From Acidobacteriaceae bacterium (GTDB lineage: Bacteria; Acidobacteriota; Terriglobia; Terriglobales; Acidobacteriaceae): a stretch of 64,000 bases of DNA. The notes under the pieces were generated by a model that was not told the DNA's origin, ran no database searches, and saw only the letters and a list, made by a program, of their open reading frames with translations. This document shows, in pieces, positions 2,876-10,073 of the stretch (positions within the stretch are counted from its first letter, which is position 1; each line of letters opens with the position of its first letter). The stretch spans positions 1-64,000 of the forward strand of contig JAJPKO010000015.1 of NCBI GenBank assembly GCA_021323655.1. Reading direction: 5' to 3'. Position numbers and translations under genes: made by a program.

Positions 2876-4912
2876 TTGATCGCGCAATTCTGGGGCAATT
2901 TCCTCAGCACTGTTTTCAGCCACCCTCTCGATTCCACGCTCCTAGTTGTGGCATGCTGGCCGCTGATTGCACTCGCGTGTCTCCTGCGCCCGCATAGCAT
3001 CCGCTACGTCGCACGTTTTTTGTTTCTCGTTGGCGCTCTGGTTTGTGTGGCCATGTTCCTATTGGCCGGAACGTTCCTCATCTCCGGACATTCACCCCAG
3101 GTGATGACTCTGCCTCTGGGACTGCCAGATCTCCCCTTCCAGGTGCGTCTCGACGCGCTCTCAGCTTTTTTCTTATTGATTCTGGGCCTGGGGGGGGCTG
3201 GGATATCCACGTTTGCGGCCGGGTATTTTCGAAGTGGCGAAGGCACGGCGCCCGGCTTGCTTAGTCTCCACTACCACTTGTTTCTTGCCAGCATGGCCGT
3301 GGTGATGCTGGCTGACGATGCATACCTTTTCATGGTGGCTTGGGAGACGATGGCCCTGACCTCGTATTTCCTCGTCACATCACAGCATCGGATACCCGAG
3401 ATTCGGCGCGCCGGGTTTCTCTATTTGCTGATGGCGCACATCGGTGCAGTGTGCATTCTGCTGAGCTTCGGGGTCATGCAGGGTGGAAGCTGCCAATTCA
3501 CGTTCGACGCCATGCGCAGCGCATCGCTTGCGCCTTTCTGGGCCACCGTCGCATTCACCCTCGCGCTTCTCGGATTCGGGGCCAAGGCTGGTCTGGTGCC
3601 GATGCATGTCTGGCTGCCTGAAGCACATCCTGCGGCGCCATCACCGGTCTCCGCGATGATGAGTGGCCTGATGCTCAAGACGGCGATCTATGGACTGCTT
3701 CGAGTCACCTTTGATTTGCTCCATGTTCAGTTCTGGCAATGGGGTATTGCCGTGCTCACGTTGGGGCTTTTCTCGGCTCTGTTCGGAGCGATTTTTGCCG
3801 GTGTTCAGACTGACATGAAGCGGCTGCTGGCTTACTCCTCAATCGAAAATATCGGACTGATCTTTACCGGCCTTGGGCTATCAATTTTGTTCGCTGCGAG
3901 CAATCTGCGACTTTTCGCGGCATTGGCGCTCGCAGCTGCTCTGATCCACGCGCTGAACCACTCGCTTTTCAAGAGCATGCTGTTTCTGGCCACTGGTAGC
4001 GTTTTGCATGCGACACGCCAGCGCAGCCTCGGGAAGCTCGGCGGCCTGATTCGGTCGATGCCGTGCGTCGCCGCGCTGGCGCTCATCGGCACGCTGGCCA
4101 TCGCGGGCTTGCCTCCACTCAATGGGTTTGTTTCCGAGTGGCTGCTGCTGCAGTCGTTTCTCTACACACCGCAGCTGCCTCACGCCTTCATTAACATGTT
4201 GATTCCTCTCGGAGCGGCGTCACTGGCTCTGACGGTCGCTCTGGCTGCATATGTCATGGTGAAGTTCTACGGTGTAATCTTCCTCGGGAAGCCGCGCGAG
4301 ACATTGTTGGCGCAGGCTCACGATGCGAATTGGCTGGAACGAATCGGCCTCGCGTGGCTCGCCGCCGGTTGTATCGCGATCGGTGTGCAGCCGCAACTTG
4401 CACTTCATGCCGCGGGGAAAACGACGGGGATGCTTGTGGGACAAACCATCGCTCCAGACCCCTCCGTCTGGCGCATAGCTCCGATTGCACCTGAGCAGGC
4501 TTCATACAGCGGATGGATTTTTCTTGCCGTCATCCTCTGTACCATTGCGGTGACATTTCTGCTGGTGCGCCTGCTGGCTCACGGGCGCGTACGCAGAACC
4601 GCACCATGGGACTGCGGCTATCCGTGGCAAACATCCCGCATGCAGGACACGGCCGAAGGATTCGGCCAACCGATACGTCATATGTTCGGAGCCTTCTTCC
4701 GCATGGAACGCGAACTTCCAGCGCCAACGGACTTGACGCCCCGGTATCGCGTCCACATTGAAGACCGCTTCTGGCGTGCTCTCTACCGACCGATCGCTGC
4801 CGCGGTCCAGCGGTTGGCAGATGCCGTTAGCTTTCTGCAGGGTGGACGCCTCGCGATTTACCTGCTCTTCAGCTTCCTAACGTTACTCGGGCTTCTGGTG
4901 TTCGTGCTATGA
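2876..4912 (+). CDS. hyfB: Hydrogenase-4 subunit B-like proton-antiporter subunit of an Ehr complex
   Basis: 678 residues, matching the roughly 670 of HyfB. It is a polytopic membrane protein of the Mrp/NuoL antiporter family. Ion-path residues are present: the glutamate of AWETMALTSYF, the lysines in GFGAKAGLVPMHVWLPEAHP and SGLMLKTAIYG, the loop DMKRLLAYSSIENIG, and the glutamate in GLPPLNGFVSEW. The start is TTG at 2876, preceded by GAGGAGAA at good spacing. It is the first gene of the operon and overlaps hyfC by four bases. Expected role: an ion-translocating arm of an energy-converting complex. Confidence 0.92.
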   Translation: MIAQFWGNFLSTVFSHPLDSTLLVVACWPLIALACLLRPHSIRYVARFLFLVGALVCVAMFLLAGTFLISGHSPQVMTLPLGLPDLPFQVRLDALSAFFLLILGLGGAGISTFAAGYFRSGEGTAPGLLSLHYHLFLASMAVVMLADDAYLFMVAWETMALTSYFLVTSQHRIPEIRRAGFLYLLMAHIGAVCILLSFGVMQGGSCQFTFDAMRSASLAPFWATVAFTLALLGFGAKAGLVPMHVWLPEAHPAAPSPVSAMMSGLMLKTAIYGLLRVTFDLLHVQFWQWGIAVLTLGLFSALFGAIFAGVQTDMKRLLAYSSIENIGLIFTGLGLSILFAASNLRLFAALALAAALIHALNHSLFKSMLFLATGSVLHATRQRSLGKLGGLIRSMPCVAALALIGTLAIAGLPPLNGFVSEWLLLQSFLYTPQLPHAFINMLIPLGAASLALTVALAAYVMVKFYGVIFLGKPRETLLAQAHDANWLERIGLAWLAAGCIAIGVQPQLALHAAGKTTGMLVGQTIAPDPSVWRIAPIAPEQASYSGWIFLAVILCTIAVTFLLVRLLAHGRVRRTAPWDCGYPWQTSRMQDTAEGFGQPIRHMFGAFFRMERELPAPTDLTPRYRVHIEDRFWRALYRPIAAAVQRLADAVSFLQGGRLAIYLLFSFLTLLGLLVFVL

Positions 4913-5871
4913 GAGGAATCGCGCTTATTTGGCAATTCGGAGAAGTGATTCTCGCAATCGCGCTGGCGCCGCTCTTTTCAGGGTGGATCGCTCAATGCCG
5001 AGCCTGGATGCAGAATCGATCCGCTCCGCCGTTGACGCAGCAATATCGGATGTTGCGCAAATTGTTCAATAAGGACGCTGCACTGGCTGAAGATGCTTCT
5101 CGACTGTTCCGCACCACGCCCTACGTGCTCTTTGGGACCATGGTTTTGGCCGCGGCGATTATCCCTTCCGTTGTGACAGACCTTCCCTTTGCGCACGCTG
5201 CCGACGCTATTGCACTGATCGGGCTTTTTGCCACTGCGAGGGTGTTCCAGGCACTGGCGGCCATGGACATCGGCACTGCCTTTGGAACTCTGGGAGCACG
5301 CCGAGAAATGATGGTCGGCTTTCTTGCCGAGCCGGCTATCCTGATGGTCTTCTTCAATGCATTTCTTCTCTTCGGCACAACGGCTCTCACTGGCCTGGTC
5401 GACAACTACACGACTCATCCTTCGGTGATCGATCCCAGTGTCGTTTTTGCCGCCATCGCATTCACCATGGTTCTGCTTGCCGAGAATGCCCGGATCCCGA
5501 TTGACAATCCCGCCACCCACCTGGAACTCACAATGATCCACGAGGCCATGGTGCTTGAATACTCTGCGCGGCACCTTGCTCTGATCGAATGGGCTTCGAG
5601 CCTCAAACTTTTCAACTATGCCTGCATCGGCCTGGCGCTTTTCCTGCCGTGGGGCATTGCCATTCATGGAGCGCATGTCGGCTCCGTCCTGATTGCGCTT
5701 TTCGCACTGCTGGTCAAGCTTGCATTTTGCGGAGCAGGGCTCGCGCTGATCGAATCCGTTTCTGCCAAATTGCGAATCTTCCGTGCTCCTGAATTCTTGG
5801 CGATGGCGTTTCTGATTGCCGTGCTCGGATTGCTGGTTCACCTTCTTCTCGGAGCGAACGTCAATGCTTAG
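4909..5871 (+). CDS. hyfC: HyfC/NuoH-like membrane subunit of an Ehr complex
   Basis: 320 residues (HyfC and HycD are about 310-315). It belongs to the NuoH/ND1 family that anchors the soluble arm to the membrane arm. The diagnostic stretch is present: RIPIDNPATHLELTMIHEAM followed by VLEYSARHLALIEWA. The ATG overlaps the hyfB stop (ATGA), indicating translational coupling. The following hyfE start lies inside its last codons. An antisense open frame of 352 codons over this gene is a shadow. Confidence 0.92.
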   Translation: MRGIALIWQFGEVILAIALAPLFSGWIAQCRAWMQNRSAPPLTQQYRMLRKLFNKDAALAEDASRLFRTTPYVLFGTMVLAAAIIPSVVTDLPFAHAADAIALIGLFATARVFQALAAMDIGTAFGTLGARREMMVGFLAEPAILMVFFNAFLLFGTTALTGLVDNYTTHPSVIDPSVVFAAIAFTMVLLAENARIPIDNPATHLELTMIHEAMVLEYSARHLALIEWASSLKLFNYACIGLALFLPWGIAIHGAHVGSVLIALFALLVKLAFCGAGLALIESVSAKLRIFRAPEFLAMAFLIAVLGLLVHLLLGANVNA

Positions 5872-6553
5872 ATCTCCTTTGAACGTCCAATTGCTCTCGC
5901 AACTGGACGTCGAATTACTGAAGCTACTGGCGGCGGGTATGCTGCTGATCTCGTTTGCCATGCTATCGACGCGGCGAACGCAGCAACTGATCACTCTGTT
6001 CGCCTGGCAGGGCGCGATCTTGTTTCTCTCGACCACACTGGTCGCGCATGAAGCCAGGCTGACAGAGCTCTATTTTTCCGCCGGGCTCACCCTGATTCTG
6101 AAGGTCATCACTCTGCCTCTGATTTTGCATACCTAGATCAAACGGCTGGGGGCCCAATGGGACAATGAACGACTTGTCAACATTCCGATCACTATGCTGG
6201 TAGGGCTGGTGCTGGTCATCTTCGCTTTTGGCCTCGCTCAGCCGATCAGCCTACTCGCTACGACGATCACCCGACACACCATCGGCATCGCGCTTGCTGT
6301 GATCCTGCTTTCCTTTCTGATGATGATCACGCGACGCAAGGCGGTGACACAGGTGATTGGGTTTCTGGCGATGGAAAACGGCCTCTTCTTCGCGGCAACC
6401 AGCGCCACCTACGGGATGCCGATGGTAATCGAACTAGGCATTGCGCTCGATCTTCTCGTGGCTGTCTTCATCCTCGGAATCTTCTTCTTTCAGATCCGCG
6501 AACAGTTCGACAGTCTCGATCTGCACCACATGGAATCCCTGAGGGAGAAGTAA
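5864..6553 (+). pseudogene. hyfE: hyfE-like membrane subunit interrupted by an in-frame amber codon at 6134-6136
   Basis: A single continuous reading frame runs from ATG 5864 (GGAG just upstream, overlapping the hyfC end) to the stop at 6551-6553. Its 229 codon positions match the roughly 215-230 residues of HyfE/NuoK-like subunits. Both halves align with the family: the first ends LTLILKVITLPLILHT, and the second continues IKRLGAQ and later GFLAMENGLFFAA and ELGIALDLLVAVFI. At 6134-6136 the codon is TAG, so the product would be a 90-residue peptide. A second ORF of 119 codons can start at ATG 6194, in the same frame, but has no Shine-Dalgarno. It could be a nonsense mutation, a sequencing error, suppression, or a subunit split in two. 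Confidence 0.85.
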
Positions 6554-6555
6554 GC

Positions 6556-8007
6556 ATGGAACTCTGGCTGGTCCTGGGAATGCCACTCTTGGGGACATTC
6601 GTGCTCGCTATACTTGGCGCGCGTCGCTATGCCCCTGAAGTCAACGTCGGGGTGAGCCTTGCCACTCTGCTGACGGCGTCTCTCCTCGTCGTGAGAATCA
6701 TCCGCAACGGACCTTTGCTGGTCGGGCGTGAGCAATTCTTTGTGGACCCGTTCAACGTATTTCTGGTTGCGCTGACCGCTTTCGTCGGTCTCACAACCGC
6801 CATCTTTTCACGACCGTACATGCGAATCGAAGAGCATCACGGCCGGCTCAATGCCCGGCGCTTACGCCTTTATCACAGCATGTATCAGCTCTTCATGTTC
6901 GCGATGCTTCTGGCACTGCTCACCAACAACATGGGCATGGTCTGGGTTGCCATGGAGGCGGCTACACTTTCCACCGTTCTGCTTGTCTCGCTTTACAGGA
7001 CCAAAGCCAGCCTCGAAGCCGCGTGGAAATATTTCATCCTGTGCGGCGTGGGCATCGCTCAGGCATTGTTCGGAACAATCCTTCTCTACTTTGCTGCGGA
7101 GCGCACGTTGGGCCGTCAGGGCATGACCGCATTGCTCTGGACGCACCTGAACGCAGCAAAGGCCGATCTCGAACCGACAGTTATGGGCCTCGCATTTGTT
7201 TTCCTGCTGGTTGGATATGGGACCAAGGTGGGATTGGCTCCGCTCCACAACTGGCTGCCCGATGCACACGCCGAAGGCCCAACGCCCGTTTCTGCGGTGC
7301 TCTCCGGCCTTCTCCTAAATGTCGCGCTCTACGCCGTGATCCGTTGCAAGGCGCTGGCTGTTGGCTCCATCGGTCCGATGATGCCAGGCCGGATGCTGAT
7401 GGCATTTGGACTCTTATCCGCGGTCCTGGCGGCATTTTTCCTGTGGAGACAGCGTGACATCAAGCGTCTCTTCGGCTACTCGTCCATCGAGCACATGGGC
7501 ATCATCACATTTGCGTTTGGCCTGGGCGGCCCGGTCGCCAACTTCGCAGCGCTCCTGCACATGACCGTTCACTCCCTCACGAAGTCTTCCATCTTCTTTA
7601 CAGCCGGACATGCCTCTCAAACAGCCGGGACGCAACAAATGGACGGGATCCGCGGCCTGGTTGGAATCAGCCCCACAATCGGTTGGGGCCTGATGCTCGG
7701 ATCTCTGGCGATCCTGGGCATGCCCCCATTCGGTGTGTTCGCAAGTGAATTCCTAATCCTTACGACGGCCATGCGAGAGCATCCGTGGACGACGCCGTTT
7801 CTTCTCATCGCGCTCGGAGTGGCGTTTGCCGGAATCTTCATGAAGGTGCAGCCGATGGCATTTGGCGAGAGCGAGGCGCCCAAGCTGCCGCACTCTCCGG
7901 CCTTAGTGCCCGTGTTCATTCATTTGGCGATGGTCTTGGTATTGGGTCTTTATATTCCACCCGCGCTGGCGGAGTGGTATCGTGCCGCTGCGCGGCTGAT
8001 CGGGTGA
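6556..8007 (+). CDS. hyfF: HyfF/NuoN-M-like proton-antiporter subunit of an Ehr complex
   Basis: 483 residues, close to HyfF (about 526). It is a second Mrp-type antiporter subunit with about 13-14 membrane segments. Key elements: AMEAATLSTVLLVSLY (glutamate), GYGTKVGLAPLHNWLPDAHA (lysine and HxxLP loop), DIKRLFGYSSIEHMGI, and GMPPFGVFASEF. GAGGGAGAAG precedes the ATG. It begins two bases after the hyfE stop. Together with hyfB it would give the complex two candidate ion channels. Confidence 0.92.
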   Translation: MELWLVLGMPLLGTFVLAILGARRYAPEVNVGVSLATLLTASLLVVRIIRNGPLLVGREQFFVDPFNVFLVALTAFVGLTTAIFSRPYMRIEEHHGRLNARRLRLYHSMYQLFMFAMLLALLTNNMGMVWVAMEAATLSTVLLVSLYRTKASLEAAWKYFILCGVGIAQALFGTILLYFAAERTLGRQGMTALLWTHLNAAKADLEPTVMGLAFVFLLVGYGTKVGLAPLHNWLPDAHAEGPTPVSAVLSGLLLNVALYAVIRCKALAVGSIGPMMPGRMLMAFGLLSAVLAAFFLWRQRDIKRLFGYSSIEHMGIITFAFGLGGPVANFAALLHMTVHSLTKSSIFFTAGHASQTAGTQQMDGIRGLVGISPTIGWGLMLGSLAILGMPPFGVFASEFLILTTAMREHPWTTPFLLIALGVAFAGIFMKVQPMAFGESEAPKLPHSPALVPVFIHLAMVLVLGLYIPPALAEWYRAAARLIG

Positions 8008-8011
8008 TTCT

Positions 8012-9556
8012 ATGACTCCGGGGTTCAAAGAGGGAACGAAGACAGTGCCGTCGAACCTGCCATGCAGCCGTAAGCGGGTGGGTGCCGTCGAATGGCGGGA
8101 GATCGCGAAATCGGTGCGTTCCGCCGGCGGGCGCTTGTTCGCCCTCTGGGGAACTGATGATCGAGATCGCGATACCTGCTTTCGCGTGTTTGCCGTCTAC
8201 CTCCATTCGAGTGGCGTCGCCGTCGTCGAACATGAAATGGAGGGTGGAACCAAGCCGACCTATCCAAGCCTCCGTGAGTACTTCCCGAGCGCTTTACGAA
8301 TGGAACGGGCCATCTTCGATTTGCTCGGCATCAAGAGCATCGAACCCGACCATCGCGGATGGCTGCGCCATGGCGGATGGCCTGAAGATGCGTTCCCACT
8401 TCGACGGGACTTTGATTGCAACAATCAATTTGCCGCCGCATCGGCGCCGTACCCCTTTGTTCAGGTTGAAGGAGACGGGGTACACGAGATTCCAGTCGGA
8501 CCGGTACACGCCGGCACCATTGAGCCGGGACATTTCCGATTCTCCGTAGTTGGAGAAAAGGTCCTGCGCCTCGAAGAACGCCTCGGGTATAAGCACAAAG
8601 GGATCGAAAAGCTGTTTGAAACGATGGCCCAAAAAGAAGGCCACAGGCTGGCTGCGCGCATCTCCGGCGACTCTGCAGTCGCGTACTCATGGGCCTACTG
8701 CGCAGCTCTGGAAGCCGCCACTGGCACCATCTGCCCTCATCGCGCAGTTCAACTGCGTGCTCTTGCCCTGGAGCACGAACGGTTGGCCAATCACCTCGGA
8801 GATTTGGGGGCGCTTGGGAATGACGCGGGGTTTGCCTTTGGACTTACCCACTTTGCGCGCATGAAGGAGGATCTGCTACGCACCAACCAGGCGTCTTTTA
8901 GTGCCCGATATCTGATGGATTTCCTTGTGCCGGGCGGTGTGGCATCCGATCTGCCTAATGACGCTCCACGATTGCTCCTCGATCGCTATCGTTCCTTCGA
9001 AGCCGATTTGAACGCCATGCGCAATACCTACGACAATCATGCGGGAGTCCAGGATCGGTTCCGTGAGACCGGAATCTTGTCTCAAGAAACTGCGTACAAT
9101 CTCGATGCCGTCGGTCTGATTGCGCGCGCATCGGGTATTCCTCACGATCTGCGATCGGACTTCCCATGGCCTCCATACGACAAGATGAAGGTCAAAGTCT
9201 CCTCGCAAACCTCAGGGGATGTGGCCGCACGTGTTGCAGTCCGCTTCGACGAGGTGATCGAATCTTTGCGGATTTGCCGCGCGTTGGTTGCGGAACTTCG
9301 CAGCGGCGACATTGCGACCGTTGTCCCGGACGCTGGGCCAGGTCTTCTCGGAATAGGCGCGATTGAAGGCTGGCGTGGTCCCGTGCTCGTCGCTCTTGAA
9401 ACCGGTTCGAACGGAAGCATTCGCAGATGCCACCCCCACGACCCCTCGTGGCAGAACTGGCCGCTAATCGAGTACGCCATTCTCGGAAACCTCGTGCCCG
9501 ACTTCCCCTTAATCAACAAGTCCTTCAACCTGTCCTACAGCGGACACGACCTCTGA
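8012..9556 (+). CDS. hyfG: HyfG-like fused NuoC/NuoD large subunit lacking Ni-Fe ligands (Ehr type)
   Basis: 514 residues. The N-terminal ~130 residues are a NuoC (30-kDa) domain; the rest is the NuoD/[NiFe]-hydrogenase large-subunit fold, for example EPGHFRFSVVGEKVLRLEER and YKHKGIEKLFE. In group 4 hydrogenases the metal is held by a CGIC-type motif and a C-terminal DPCxxC motif. Here the first is SGDS (residues 218-221), and the C-terminus ends SFNLSYSGHDL, putting Ser508 and Gly511 at the expected cysteine positions. All four nickel ligands are therefore absent, as in Ehr complexes and in NuoD. It cannot carry out standard H2 chemistry; its substrate is unknown. Confidence 0.9.
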   Translation: MTPGFKEGTKTVPSNLPCSRKRVGAVEWREIAKSVRSAGGRLFALWGTDDRDRDTCFRVFAVYLHSSGVAVVEHEMEGGTKPTYPSLREYFPSALRMERAIFDLLGIKSIEPDHRGWLRHGGWPEDAFPLRRDFDCNNQFAAASAPYPFVQVEGDGVHEIPVGPVHAGTIEPGHFRFSVVGEKVLRLEERLGYKHKGIEKLFETMAQKEGHRLAARISGDSAVAYSWAYCAALEAATGTICPHRAVQLRALALEHERLANHLGDLGALGNDAGFAFGLTHFARMKEDLLRTNQASFSARYLMDFLVPGGVASDLPNDAPRLLLDRYRSFEADLNAMRNTYDNHAGVQDRFRETGILSQETAYNLDAVGLIARASGIPHDLRSDFPWPPYDKMKVKVSSQTSGDVAARVAVRFDEVIESLRICRALVAELRSGDIATVVPDAGPGLLGIGAIEGWRGPVLVALETGSNGSIRRCHPHDPSWQNWPLIEYAILGNLVPDFPLINKSFNLSYSGHDL

Positions 9557-9563
9557 GGTTCTC

Positions 9564-10073
9564 ATGATCAATACACTCTCGAGGATGATTCGCACGGGCA
9601 TACTCACCGAAGAGGTGCCGCGAGCACCCAAAGCGGATTTGCCCATAGGAAACCTACAAGAGAAGGTCCGCAAAATCCTGGGCCGTGCGCTCTGCATTCG
9701 TCATCTCGACGCCGGTTCCTGCAATGGCTGCGAACTCGAAATACAGGCGCTCAACAATCCGTATTACAACATCGAAGGAATTGGCATAAAGTTCGTGGCG
9801 AGCCCTCGGCACGCGGATCTGCTGCTCGTGACCGGTCCCGTATCCGTGAATATGGAAGAAGCTCTCAAGAGAACCTTCGACGCCGTTCCTGATCCAAAGC
9901 TCGTCGTTGCCGTTGGAGATTGCGGCGCTTGCGGCGGGATCTTCGGCAAGAGCTACGCGAGCCGAGGCGCCGTCGCCGATGTTATTCCGGTCGATCACAC
10001 CGTGAAGGGTTGTCCTCCGTCTCCCCTGGCAATCCTGCAAGCGATCCTCGAAACCATTCAGACAACCGCCTGA
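9564..10073 (+). CDS. hyfI: HyfI/NuoB-like [4Fe-4S] small subunit of an Ehr complex
   Basis: 169 residues. It carries the four cysteines of the N2-type/proximal cluster: Cys53 and Cys56 in SCNGCE, Cys120 in VGDCGACGG, and Cys150 in GCPPSP. It is a peripheral subunit that would sit between HyfG and HyfC. It starts seven bases after hyfG and is the last recognisable subunit of the operon. No NuoI/HyfH-like 2x[4Fe-4S] protein lies between hyfG and hyfI or on either side, so this is the only visible iron-sulfur cluster of the complex. Confidence 0.92.
   Translation: MINTLSRMIRTGILTEEVPRAPKADLPIGNLQEKVRKILGRALCIRHLDAGSCNGCELEIQALNNPYYNIEGIGIKFVASPRHADLLLVTGPVSVNMEEALKRTFDAVPDPKLVVAVGDCGACGGIFGKSYASRGAVADVIPVDHTVKGCPPSPLAILQAILETIQTTA

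Follow-up and report, generated by a model that had tools for sequence, protein, structure and literature searches.

An Ehr-type membrane complex without nickel-iron ligands in an Acidobacteriaceae bacterium, its conserved replacement pocket, four-cysteine relatives and fluoride-linked sister branch

Complexes that resemble group 4 [NiFe]-hydrogenases and lack the ligands of the Ni-Fe centre are called "Ehr" in the excerpts available of two papers (PMC10284858, PMC6349859), a name that serves as a negative label. Excerpts on Mycobacterium tuberculosis describe a "hyc" operon, Rv0081-Rv0087, made up of a regulator, two oxidoreductase genes, hycD, hycP, hycQ and hycE (PMC6901956, PMC3087520); one of them (PMC6901956) names Rv0081 as the regulator of rv0082-rv0087, a putative hydrogenase operon, and places Rv0081 itself in the hypoxic DosR regulon. 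"Formate hydrogen lyase" genes have been described behind fluoride riboswitches (PMC2864571, PMC11139923, both in excerpt). Here we analyse a related operon, preceded by a gene for an ArsR-type regulator, in the window, a stretch of 64,000 nucleotides from an Acidobacteriaceae bacterium (contig JAJPKO010000015.1, positions 1 to 64,000); a literature search for a tested function of this ArsR-type complex found none. Its sequence suggests descent from H2-making enzymes and makes it very unlikely to be a hydrogenase, because the residues that hold the Ni-Fe centre are absent. The interest of the complex lies in a conserved replacement pocket, in relatives that keep all four cysteines, and in a fluoride-linked sister branch.

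The large subunit, which is HyfG-like, is encoded by a real and complete open reading frame at 8012-9556 (514 aa, ATG start; this and all other window features given below are on the plus strand). Pfam places Complex1_30kDa at residues 26-138 and Complex1_49kDa at 273-436 of the same chain, so the fusion of NuoC and NuoD parts is real. The closest solved relative by sequence is HycE of Escherichia coli (7z0s, E 1.6e-57), and MbsL (6u8y) is another match among solved structures. In the alignment with HycE, SGDS (residues 218-221, at 8663-8674) falls on CGIC and NLSYSG (506-511) falls on DPCYSC; the chain ends with NLSYSGHDL (506-514, at 9527-9553) where hydrogenases have DPCxxCTDR. The CGIC and DPCLSC motifs of MbhL (6cfw) share those columns in a profile alignment. 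Ligand positions C1 to C4 are occupied by S218, S221, S508 and G511, and none of the protein's own cysteines (18, 56, 136, 230, 241, 422 and 473) is at a ligand position. The first-pass annotation had read all four Ni-Fe cysteines as replaced, with SGDS for CGIC and the C-terminal DPCxxC gone, and had described the NuoC fusion as intact; the motif alignment, run with HycE, MbhL and NuoD rows, agrees on each replacement, and the 30-kDa domain agrees on the fusion.

Two ways in which the ligands might have been overlooked were rejected. Substitute cysteines elsewhere in the chain are not apparent, as no column reaches 90% Cys across the 91 aligned sequences of the window's close kin. Misalignment of the two motifs (L1 and L2) can be dismissed since three relatives with all four cysteines (L164-L166) align without gaps to SGDS and NKSFNLSYSGHDL, which confirms the motif alignment. 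An AlphaFold model of the large subunit, built from a 55-row alignment (A1), has a mean pLDDT of 82.7 and a pTM of 0.88, with values below 50 for residues 147-193 and 510-514. Its best Foldseek match is HycE (7z0s_E, TM 0.89/0.86), which VIA-align superposes over 505 residues with Z 41.8 and rmsd 3.2; the model also resembles the 49 kDa subunits of complex I (Z 37-38).

The operon has the order ArsR-HyfB-C-E-F-G-I. HyfB (2876-4912, 678 aa) and HyfF (6556-8007, 483 aa) are proton-channel subunits, like NuoL/M and NuoL/M/N respectively, which score as NCBIfam hydrogenase 4 subunits B (850 bits, cut-off 667) and F (845 bits, cut-off 543). HyfC (4909-5871, 320 aa) is NuoH-like (Pfam NADHdh, 2.1e-29), with four acidic residues conserved in the family. 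HyfI (9564-10073, 169 aa) is the NuoB-like small subunit (Pfam Oxidored_q6, 3e-29), and its Cys 53, 56, 120 and 150 are the four cysteines of one [4Fe-4S] site. These four are kept in all 86 small subunits found among the window's close kin and in all 10 of a more distant type. The channel residues are likewise kept among the close kin. Numbered as in the second operon copy of the same genome (L008) and counted over rows that are long enough, HyfF E134/K224/K343/E398 are present in 82/82, HyfC E192/E206/E212/E217 in 71/71, and HyfB K234/K363/E418 in 70/70 with E154 in 69/70. They are more uniform in the Cys-less family than in the HycE-type comparison set.

The hyfE gene (5864-6553, with 5864 a chosen start) is split by a single in-frame TAG at 6134-6136 into open halves at 5864-6136 and 6194-6553; an ATG at 6194, downstream of the stop, could restart the second half. 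A tblastn search with the intact 221-aa HyfE of the second operon copy, on contig C32, gave one HSP covering residues 10-221 at 84% identity with one stop. As the match runs in a single frame with one TAG, the change is a substitution, and a frameshift was rejected. A recent mutation or a sequence error could account for the stop, or the split may be tolerated.

A scan of species genomes returned at least 584 relatives among 595 candidate stretches; the best 80, which were kept and are 51-77% identical, come from Acidobacteriota, Gammaproteobacteria and Betaproteobacteria. These 80, together with plasmid records and genomes of the window's family, supplied 120 large subunits for alignment. Type A comprises the window's close kin (91 rows, 86 distinct in the NuoD part), type M more distant kin (10 rows, six from the window's family and others from Rhizobium, Azospirillum and Rhodococcus plasmids), type F a sister type (6 rows, with four more, L160-L163, added later) and type H the HycE-type proteins (10 rows, assigned by best match before motifs were examined); three NuoD rows were included. 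All four ligand cysteines are present in 10/10 H-type rows and in none of the ten M-type or six F-type rows. In the 86 distinct A-type sequences, C1 is Ser, Cys or Ala in 68, 14 and 4 cases, C2 is Ser in 83 and Thr in 3, C3 is never Cys, and C4 is Gly in 86/86 (the masked, out-of-frame tail of one A-type row, L026, is uninformative at the C-terminus). A-type sequences thus have at most one of the four ligand cysteines, always C1 when present, and not a single row of type A, M or F carries a pair of them. The lone Cys at the first L1 position (CGDS) was seen in L021, L028, L029, L032, L036-L038, L040, L041, L045, L051, L060, L062 and L073. A Cys one place after C4 occurs in 6/6 F rows and 6/10 M rows and is absent from the four later F rows, and one place before C3 in 3/10 M rows.

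The residues that stand in place of the ligands are themselves conserved in A-type proteins, with G219, D220 and G511 in 86/86 and K503 and N506 in 85/86, so the region looks like a rebuilt pocket rather than the product of erosion. Because dS was high, our dN/dS values are rough: HyfG gave 0.10-0.12 against its nearest copies (two comparisons, the third being saturated) and the other subunits gave 0.02-0.08, including those downstream of the hyfE stop. No DNA-level relative was matched in E. coli genomes. As far as sequence can tell, the family is widespread, conserved and under constraint.

A tree was built from 61 rows after removal of the L1 columns and the L2 tail. Cys-less rows account for 48 of them (32 from the 91 of type A, plus every M and F row) and form one branch with support 100/100, separate from the HycE-type rows. 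We examined a further 18 loci, which came from the 21 next-best places of a phylum search that used the F type as query. Three of these, L164-L166, have all four cysteines within the NKSF context, with CGVC or CGAC at L1 and NKSFELCYSCTDR or NKSFELCYACTDR at L2, and their gene layout is alike (B-C-E-F-G-I, hyfE not being located in L165). They are placed inside the otherwise Cys-less clade, beside A and M (whole clade 100/100, inner branch 87/84). With four-Cys rows inside this clade (87/84), loss of the Ni-Fe ligands may have occurred repeatedly, yet the AU test does not reject a single clade made up of every Cys-less row (p 0.159). The idea that ligand loss caused the short C-terminus found no support. 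The window protein lacks the C-terminal extension and ends at D513-L514; the chains of L164-L166, L105 and L126, which keep all four cysteines, stop at that position too and have no extension, so its absence is not decisive. The first-pass annotation had called the complex an Ehr complex and not a hydrogenase. Its Cys-less motifs and the position of the large subunit outside the HycE-type enzymes, in a 100/100 clade found with the ligand columns excluded, bear this out for an alignment that has the named Ehr references (Geobacter, Mbx, Nitrospira) outside it. The operon-level departures from hydrogenase 4 and the stop in hyfE go beyond that annotation.

The genome carries three Cys-less complexes. 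Besides the window copy, a complete ArsR-HyfB-C-E-F-G-I operon with all subunits intact lies on contig C32 (L008 2571-10201), and its equally Cys-less large subunit is 66% identical to that of the window. The third, on contig C46 (L007 6399-14314), is of the sister type and has the order C-E-F-G-I-B directly behind a fluoride riboswitch. Pfam domains near it include enolase, a dynamin-family GTPase, CrcB, two DUF190 proteins and a universal stress protein; genes like these neighbours are annotated on Burkholderia plasmids. On C46, four matches to the riboswitch exceed the cut-off and one falls short of it, and C65 of this genome has one that barely exceeds it. The window has no match at the gathering score, and a fluoride riboswitch for its operon was rejected.

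The link between sister type and riboswitch extends beyond this genome. A fluoride riboswitch (RF01734) lies directly upstream of hyfC, on the same strand and within about 260 bases, in 12/12 sister-type loci examined. It is above the gathering score in eleven (L007, L104, L117, L118, L123, L160-L163, L211 and L212, the hyfC start of L212 being taken from a tblastn match beginning at HyfC residue 9) and below it in L120 (28.0 bits, cut-off 34, E 4.4e-5). The 38 loci of other types that were scanned, 10 A-type loci among them (the window, L008, L106 and seven more), gave no match at the gathering score, though some of the stretches (L167, for example) miss the operon start. The large subunits of all 12 sister-type loci lack the four cysteines, and in L007, L104 and L211 the complex sits among fluoride-resistance genes. 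The fourth cluster Cys of the small subunit is lost in 3/6 F rows and kept in L131-L134 of the same subtype; it is Asn (GNPPPP) in L007 (8544-9299), L120 and L123. What the fluoride literature calls "formate hydrogenlyase" probably corresponds to these sister-type operons. By sequence, the riboswitch-linked operons sampled here encode Cys-less complexes, and it is very unlikely that they encode formate hydrogenlyase; a limited literature search found no statement that equates the two.

The accessory gene HypD, which is required for making Ni-Fe centres, is absent from 14 of the 31 genomes sampled for Cys-less complexes (6/19 and 8/12), although in draft genomes absence can reflect missed sequence. 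In three of the 19, motifs were determined afterwards and are Cys-less. HypD is present in 3/3 genomes with the four-Cys form (G104, G191 and G332, which hold L164, L165 and L166, respectively). The same three genomes also carry a relative with a Cys-less C-terminal motif (L216-L218); if they are included, the HypD-less count becomes 14/34. HypD does occur in the genome from which the window comes, and another hydrogenase may be encoded there.

The gene upstream of the window operon (2425-2808, 127 aa, no Cys) encodes an ArsR/SmtB-family regulator (NCBIfam NF033788, 89.7 bits, cut-off 55) and ends 67 bases 5' of hyfB. Among solved structures it is nearest to Rv0081 of M. tuberculosis (6jmi, E 2.6e-19), with the next match at 9.3e-12. 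Of the 94 A-type and M-type loci, 26 (20 A, 6 M) have kin of this regulator immediately upstream of the operon, and proteobacterial A-type loci are not among them; a 27th, in L068, is not upstream. By analogy with Rv0081, the regulator would control the window operon in response to a stress signal. The largest clusters of flanking ORFs across the 94 loci are the ArsR kin (27), a short ORF (18) and a long ORF that is MetG-like by eye (11). The short ORF, found in proteobacterial loci, lies just 5' of hyfB and mostly on the opposite strand (in L029, L034, L036, L038 and L041, for example, at about 4.5-4.8 kb), in the place that ArsR occupies in Acidobacteriota. It is possibly another regulator; one member looks ribbon-helix-helix-like by eye. 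In two Rhizobium plasmids a DUF4365 gene follows hyfI by 12 bases (L100 11050-12090, L107 11077-12090).

The surroundings of the 94 loci give no sign of a substrate, a carrier or a redox partner, and when flanking ORFs within 6 kb, where many flanks are cut, were clustered in search of a conserved partner, no ferredoxin or dehydrogenase gene was noticed repeatedly. HycB- or HycF-like ORFs were found neither in the first 20 kb of the window nor in 19 kb around the C32 operon. An ORF that matches HycB, HycF, HycI or HypD best occurs in just one of the 94 loci, L113 (type M), and none has a HycI-like ORF. Nor does the operon include an input module for NADH or F420.

We propose, at a probability of roughly one in two, that this is a six-subunit membrane ion-translocating complex, derived from group 4 [NiFe]-hydrogenases, that has no Ni-Fe centre, neither makes nor oxidises H2 and couples redox chemistry to proton movement. 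What the sequence itself offers is the absence of the ligands, one [4Fe-4S] site, retained proton-channel residues and purifying selection. In the proposed mechanism, the HyfI cluster would exchange electrons with a substrate or carrier other than H2 in a HyfG pocket formed by S218-G219-D220-S221, N502-K503-S504-F505-N506-L507-S508-Y509 and D513, and this exchange would drive, or be driven by, proton movement through HyfC, HyfF and HyfB. The donor or acceptor would dock directly at HyfI/HyfG, because the operon has no ferredoxin-type subunit. As there is only one cluster site, the redox role is something we infer. The place of the Cys-less rows in the tree, the HypD pattern, the conserved pocket and the HycE-like fold of the model also speak for the proposal. 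The lack of a visible partner gene, the missing fourth cluster Cys in 3/6 F rows, the stop in hyfE, the low pLDDT of two segments of the model and the caveats on the HypD counts are points against it.

The main rival is a machine without redox chemistry, in which HyfG and HyfI would be structural or sensory and protons, or a coupled ion, would be moved under acid-type stress. Mrp antiporters move ions without redox subunits, and several observations point the same way: channel residues kept more uniformly than in the HycE-type set, a single remaining cluster site in type A, and a sister branch that lies under fluoride riboswitches, sits among fluoride-resistance genes in three loci and has dropped one cluster Cys in half of its six rows. 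However, the retention of all four cluster cysteines in 86/86 A-type small subunits is hard to explain without redox chemistry, the pocket is strictly conserved, and none of the ten A-type loci scanned has the riboswitch at the gathering score; we regard this rival as somewhat unlikely. A complex I-like quinone reductase or quinol oxidase, with quinone bound in the HyfG pocket as in NuoD, would fit the predicted likeness of the fold to the 49 kDa subunits and the NuoH-like HyfC with its conserved acidic residues. This is made less likely by the alignment, in which His38 and Tyr87 of Nqo4, which we take to be quinone-site residues, fall on I170 and G219 of the window protein, and the operon lacks an NADH or F420 input module; we consider a quinone enzyme improbable.

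Less probable again is a decaying relic of hydrogenase 4. The stop in hyfE and the second, intact Cys-less operon elsewhere in the genome could suggest such a relic, but dN/dS of 0.02-0.12 in all subunits, including those past the stop, and conservation throughout the family in Acidobacteriota and Proteobacteria argue against it, and decay was rejected as the explanation of the Cys loss on the low dN/dS. A working hydrogenase that uses Ser, Asp or other metal ligands is hardly credible. In its favour are the Cys at C1 in 14/86 distinct A-type sequences, the Cys next to C4 in the original F rows and 6/10 M rows, though not in the four later F rows, and D220 and D513, which are invariant or nearly so. 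Against it, two ligand cysteines never occur together in an A, M or F row, C4 is Gly in every A-type sequence, HypD is absent from 14/31 genomes, and the HycI protease and C-terminal extension are missing; we know of no [NiFe] enzyme that lacks its four (seleno)cysteines. Redox-coupled proton movement is the reading we prefer.

We also speculate that the Cys-less complexes as a whole might be stress-induced ion machines, the F type serving in fluoride stress and the ArsR branch in another stress, in which the Ni-Fe site gave way to a new pocket and redox coupling was weakened or given up. This is a tentative possibility; if it is true, the weakening would be tied to a proximal cluster ligand that some F-branch members have lost. 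The family poses a standing question on the line between hydrogenases and complex I, for which the four-Cys relatives with a like gene layout reveal the residues that differ and the riboswitch-linked sister branch supplies an inducer and a phenotype for testing. The sister branch also suggests that papers on fluoride stress apply the name "formate hydrogenlyase" to something other than a hydrogenase.

Labels matter in this context. NCBIfam equivalogs name HyfB and HyfF "hydrogenase 4 subunit B/F", above cut-off, and on a Rhizobium plasmid RefSeq gives the membrane subunits as hydrogenase 4 and the large subunit as NADH-quinone oxidoreductase subunit C. The first-pass warning that annotation as hydrogenase 4 would be wrong holds for the membrane subunits; in the Rhizobium record the large subunit received the other label. 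"Hydrogenase 4" or NADH dehydrogenase labels on such operons can mislead claims about H2 metabolism.

Set beside the known systems, the window complex is by its sequence of the Ehr type, a kind already known: the large subunit is group 4-like without CxxC ligands, and the membrane subunits are NuoH-like and Mrp/NuoL-like with channel residues. The Ehr of Nitrospira (PMC10284858, PMC12542776), according to excerpts, is also group 4-like without CxxC and related to complex I and Ech; compared with that description, the window operon has a minimal set of six subunits plus ArsR, without a ferredoxin or formate dehydrogenase subunit. With formate hydrogenlyase-1 (HycE, 7z0s) and hydrogenase-4 of E. 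coli it shares the fold, the NuoC fusion and membrane subunits of the HycC/HycD kind (HyfB/C/E/F), but the E. coli cluster has the four Ni-Fe cysteines, HycB/HycF, HycI and the C-terminal extension, all of which the window lacks. In E. coli, Pantoea and Azospirillum, the hydrogenase clusters include ferredoxin-type subunits together with HycI and hyp genes. The complex thus departs from group 4 [NiFe]-hydrogenases (Hyc/Hyf) in its cysteine ligands, in the extension with HycI, in HycB/HycF and in its place in the tree. With complex I it shares the NuoD/Nqo4 fold and the NuoC-NuoD-NuoB-NuoH core, while the quinone-site residues and the NADH module are missing. It resembles the M. tuberculosis Rv0081-Rv0087 operon, as described in excerpts, in having an Rv0081-like regulator next to it. 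A Rhodococcus plasmid carries an actinobacterial operon (L099) that is Cys-less too (SGDT / NLSYAGNDL), with the small subunit gene first rather than last as in the window. The fluoride-linked "formate hydrogen lyase", as represented by the loci sampled here rather than by the papers' own, is a Cys-less sister type with six like subunits that differs from the window's complex in its order (C-E-F-G-I-B), in having a riboswitch in place of ArsR and in its pocket motif.
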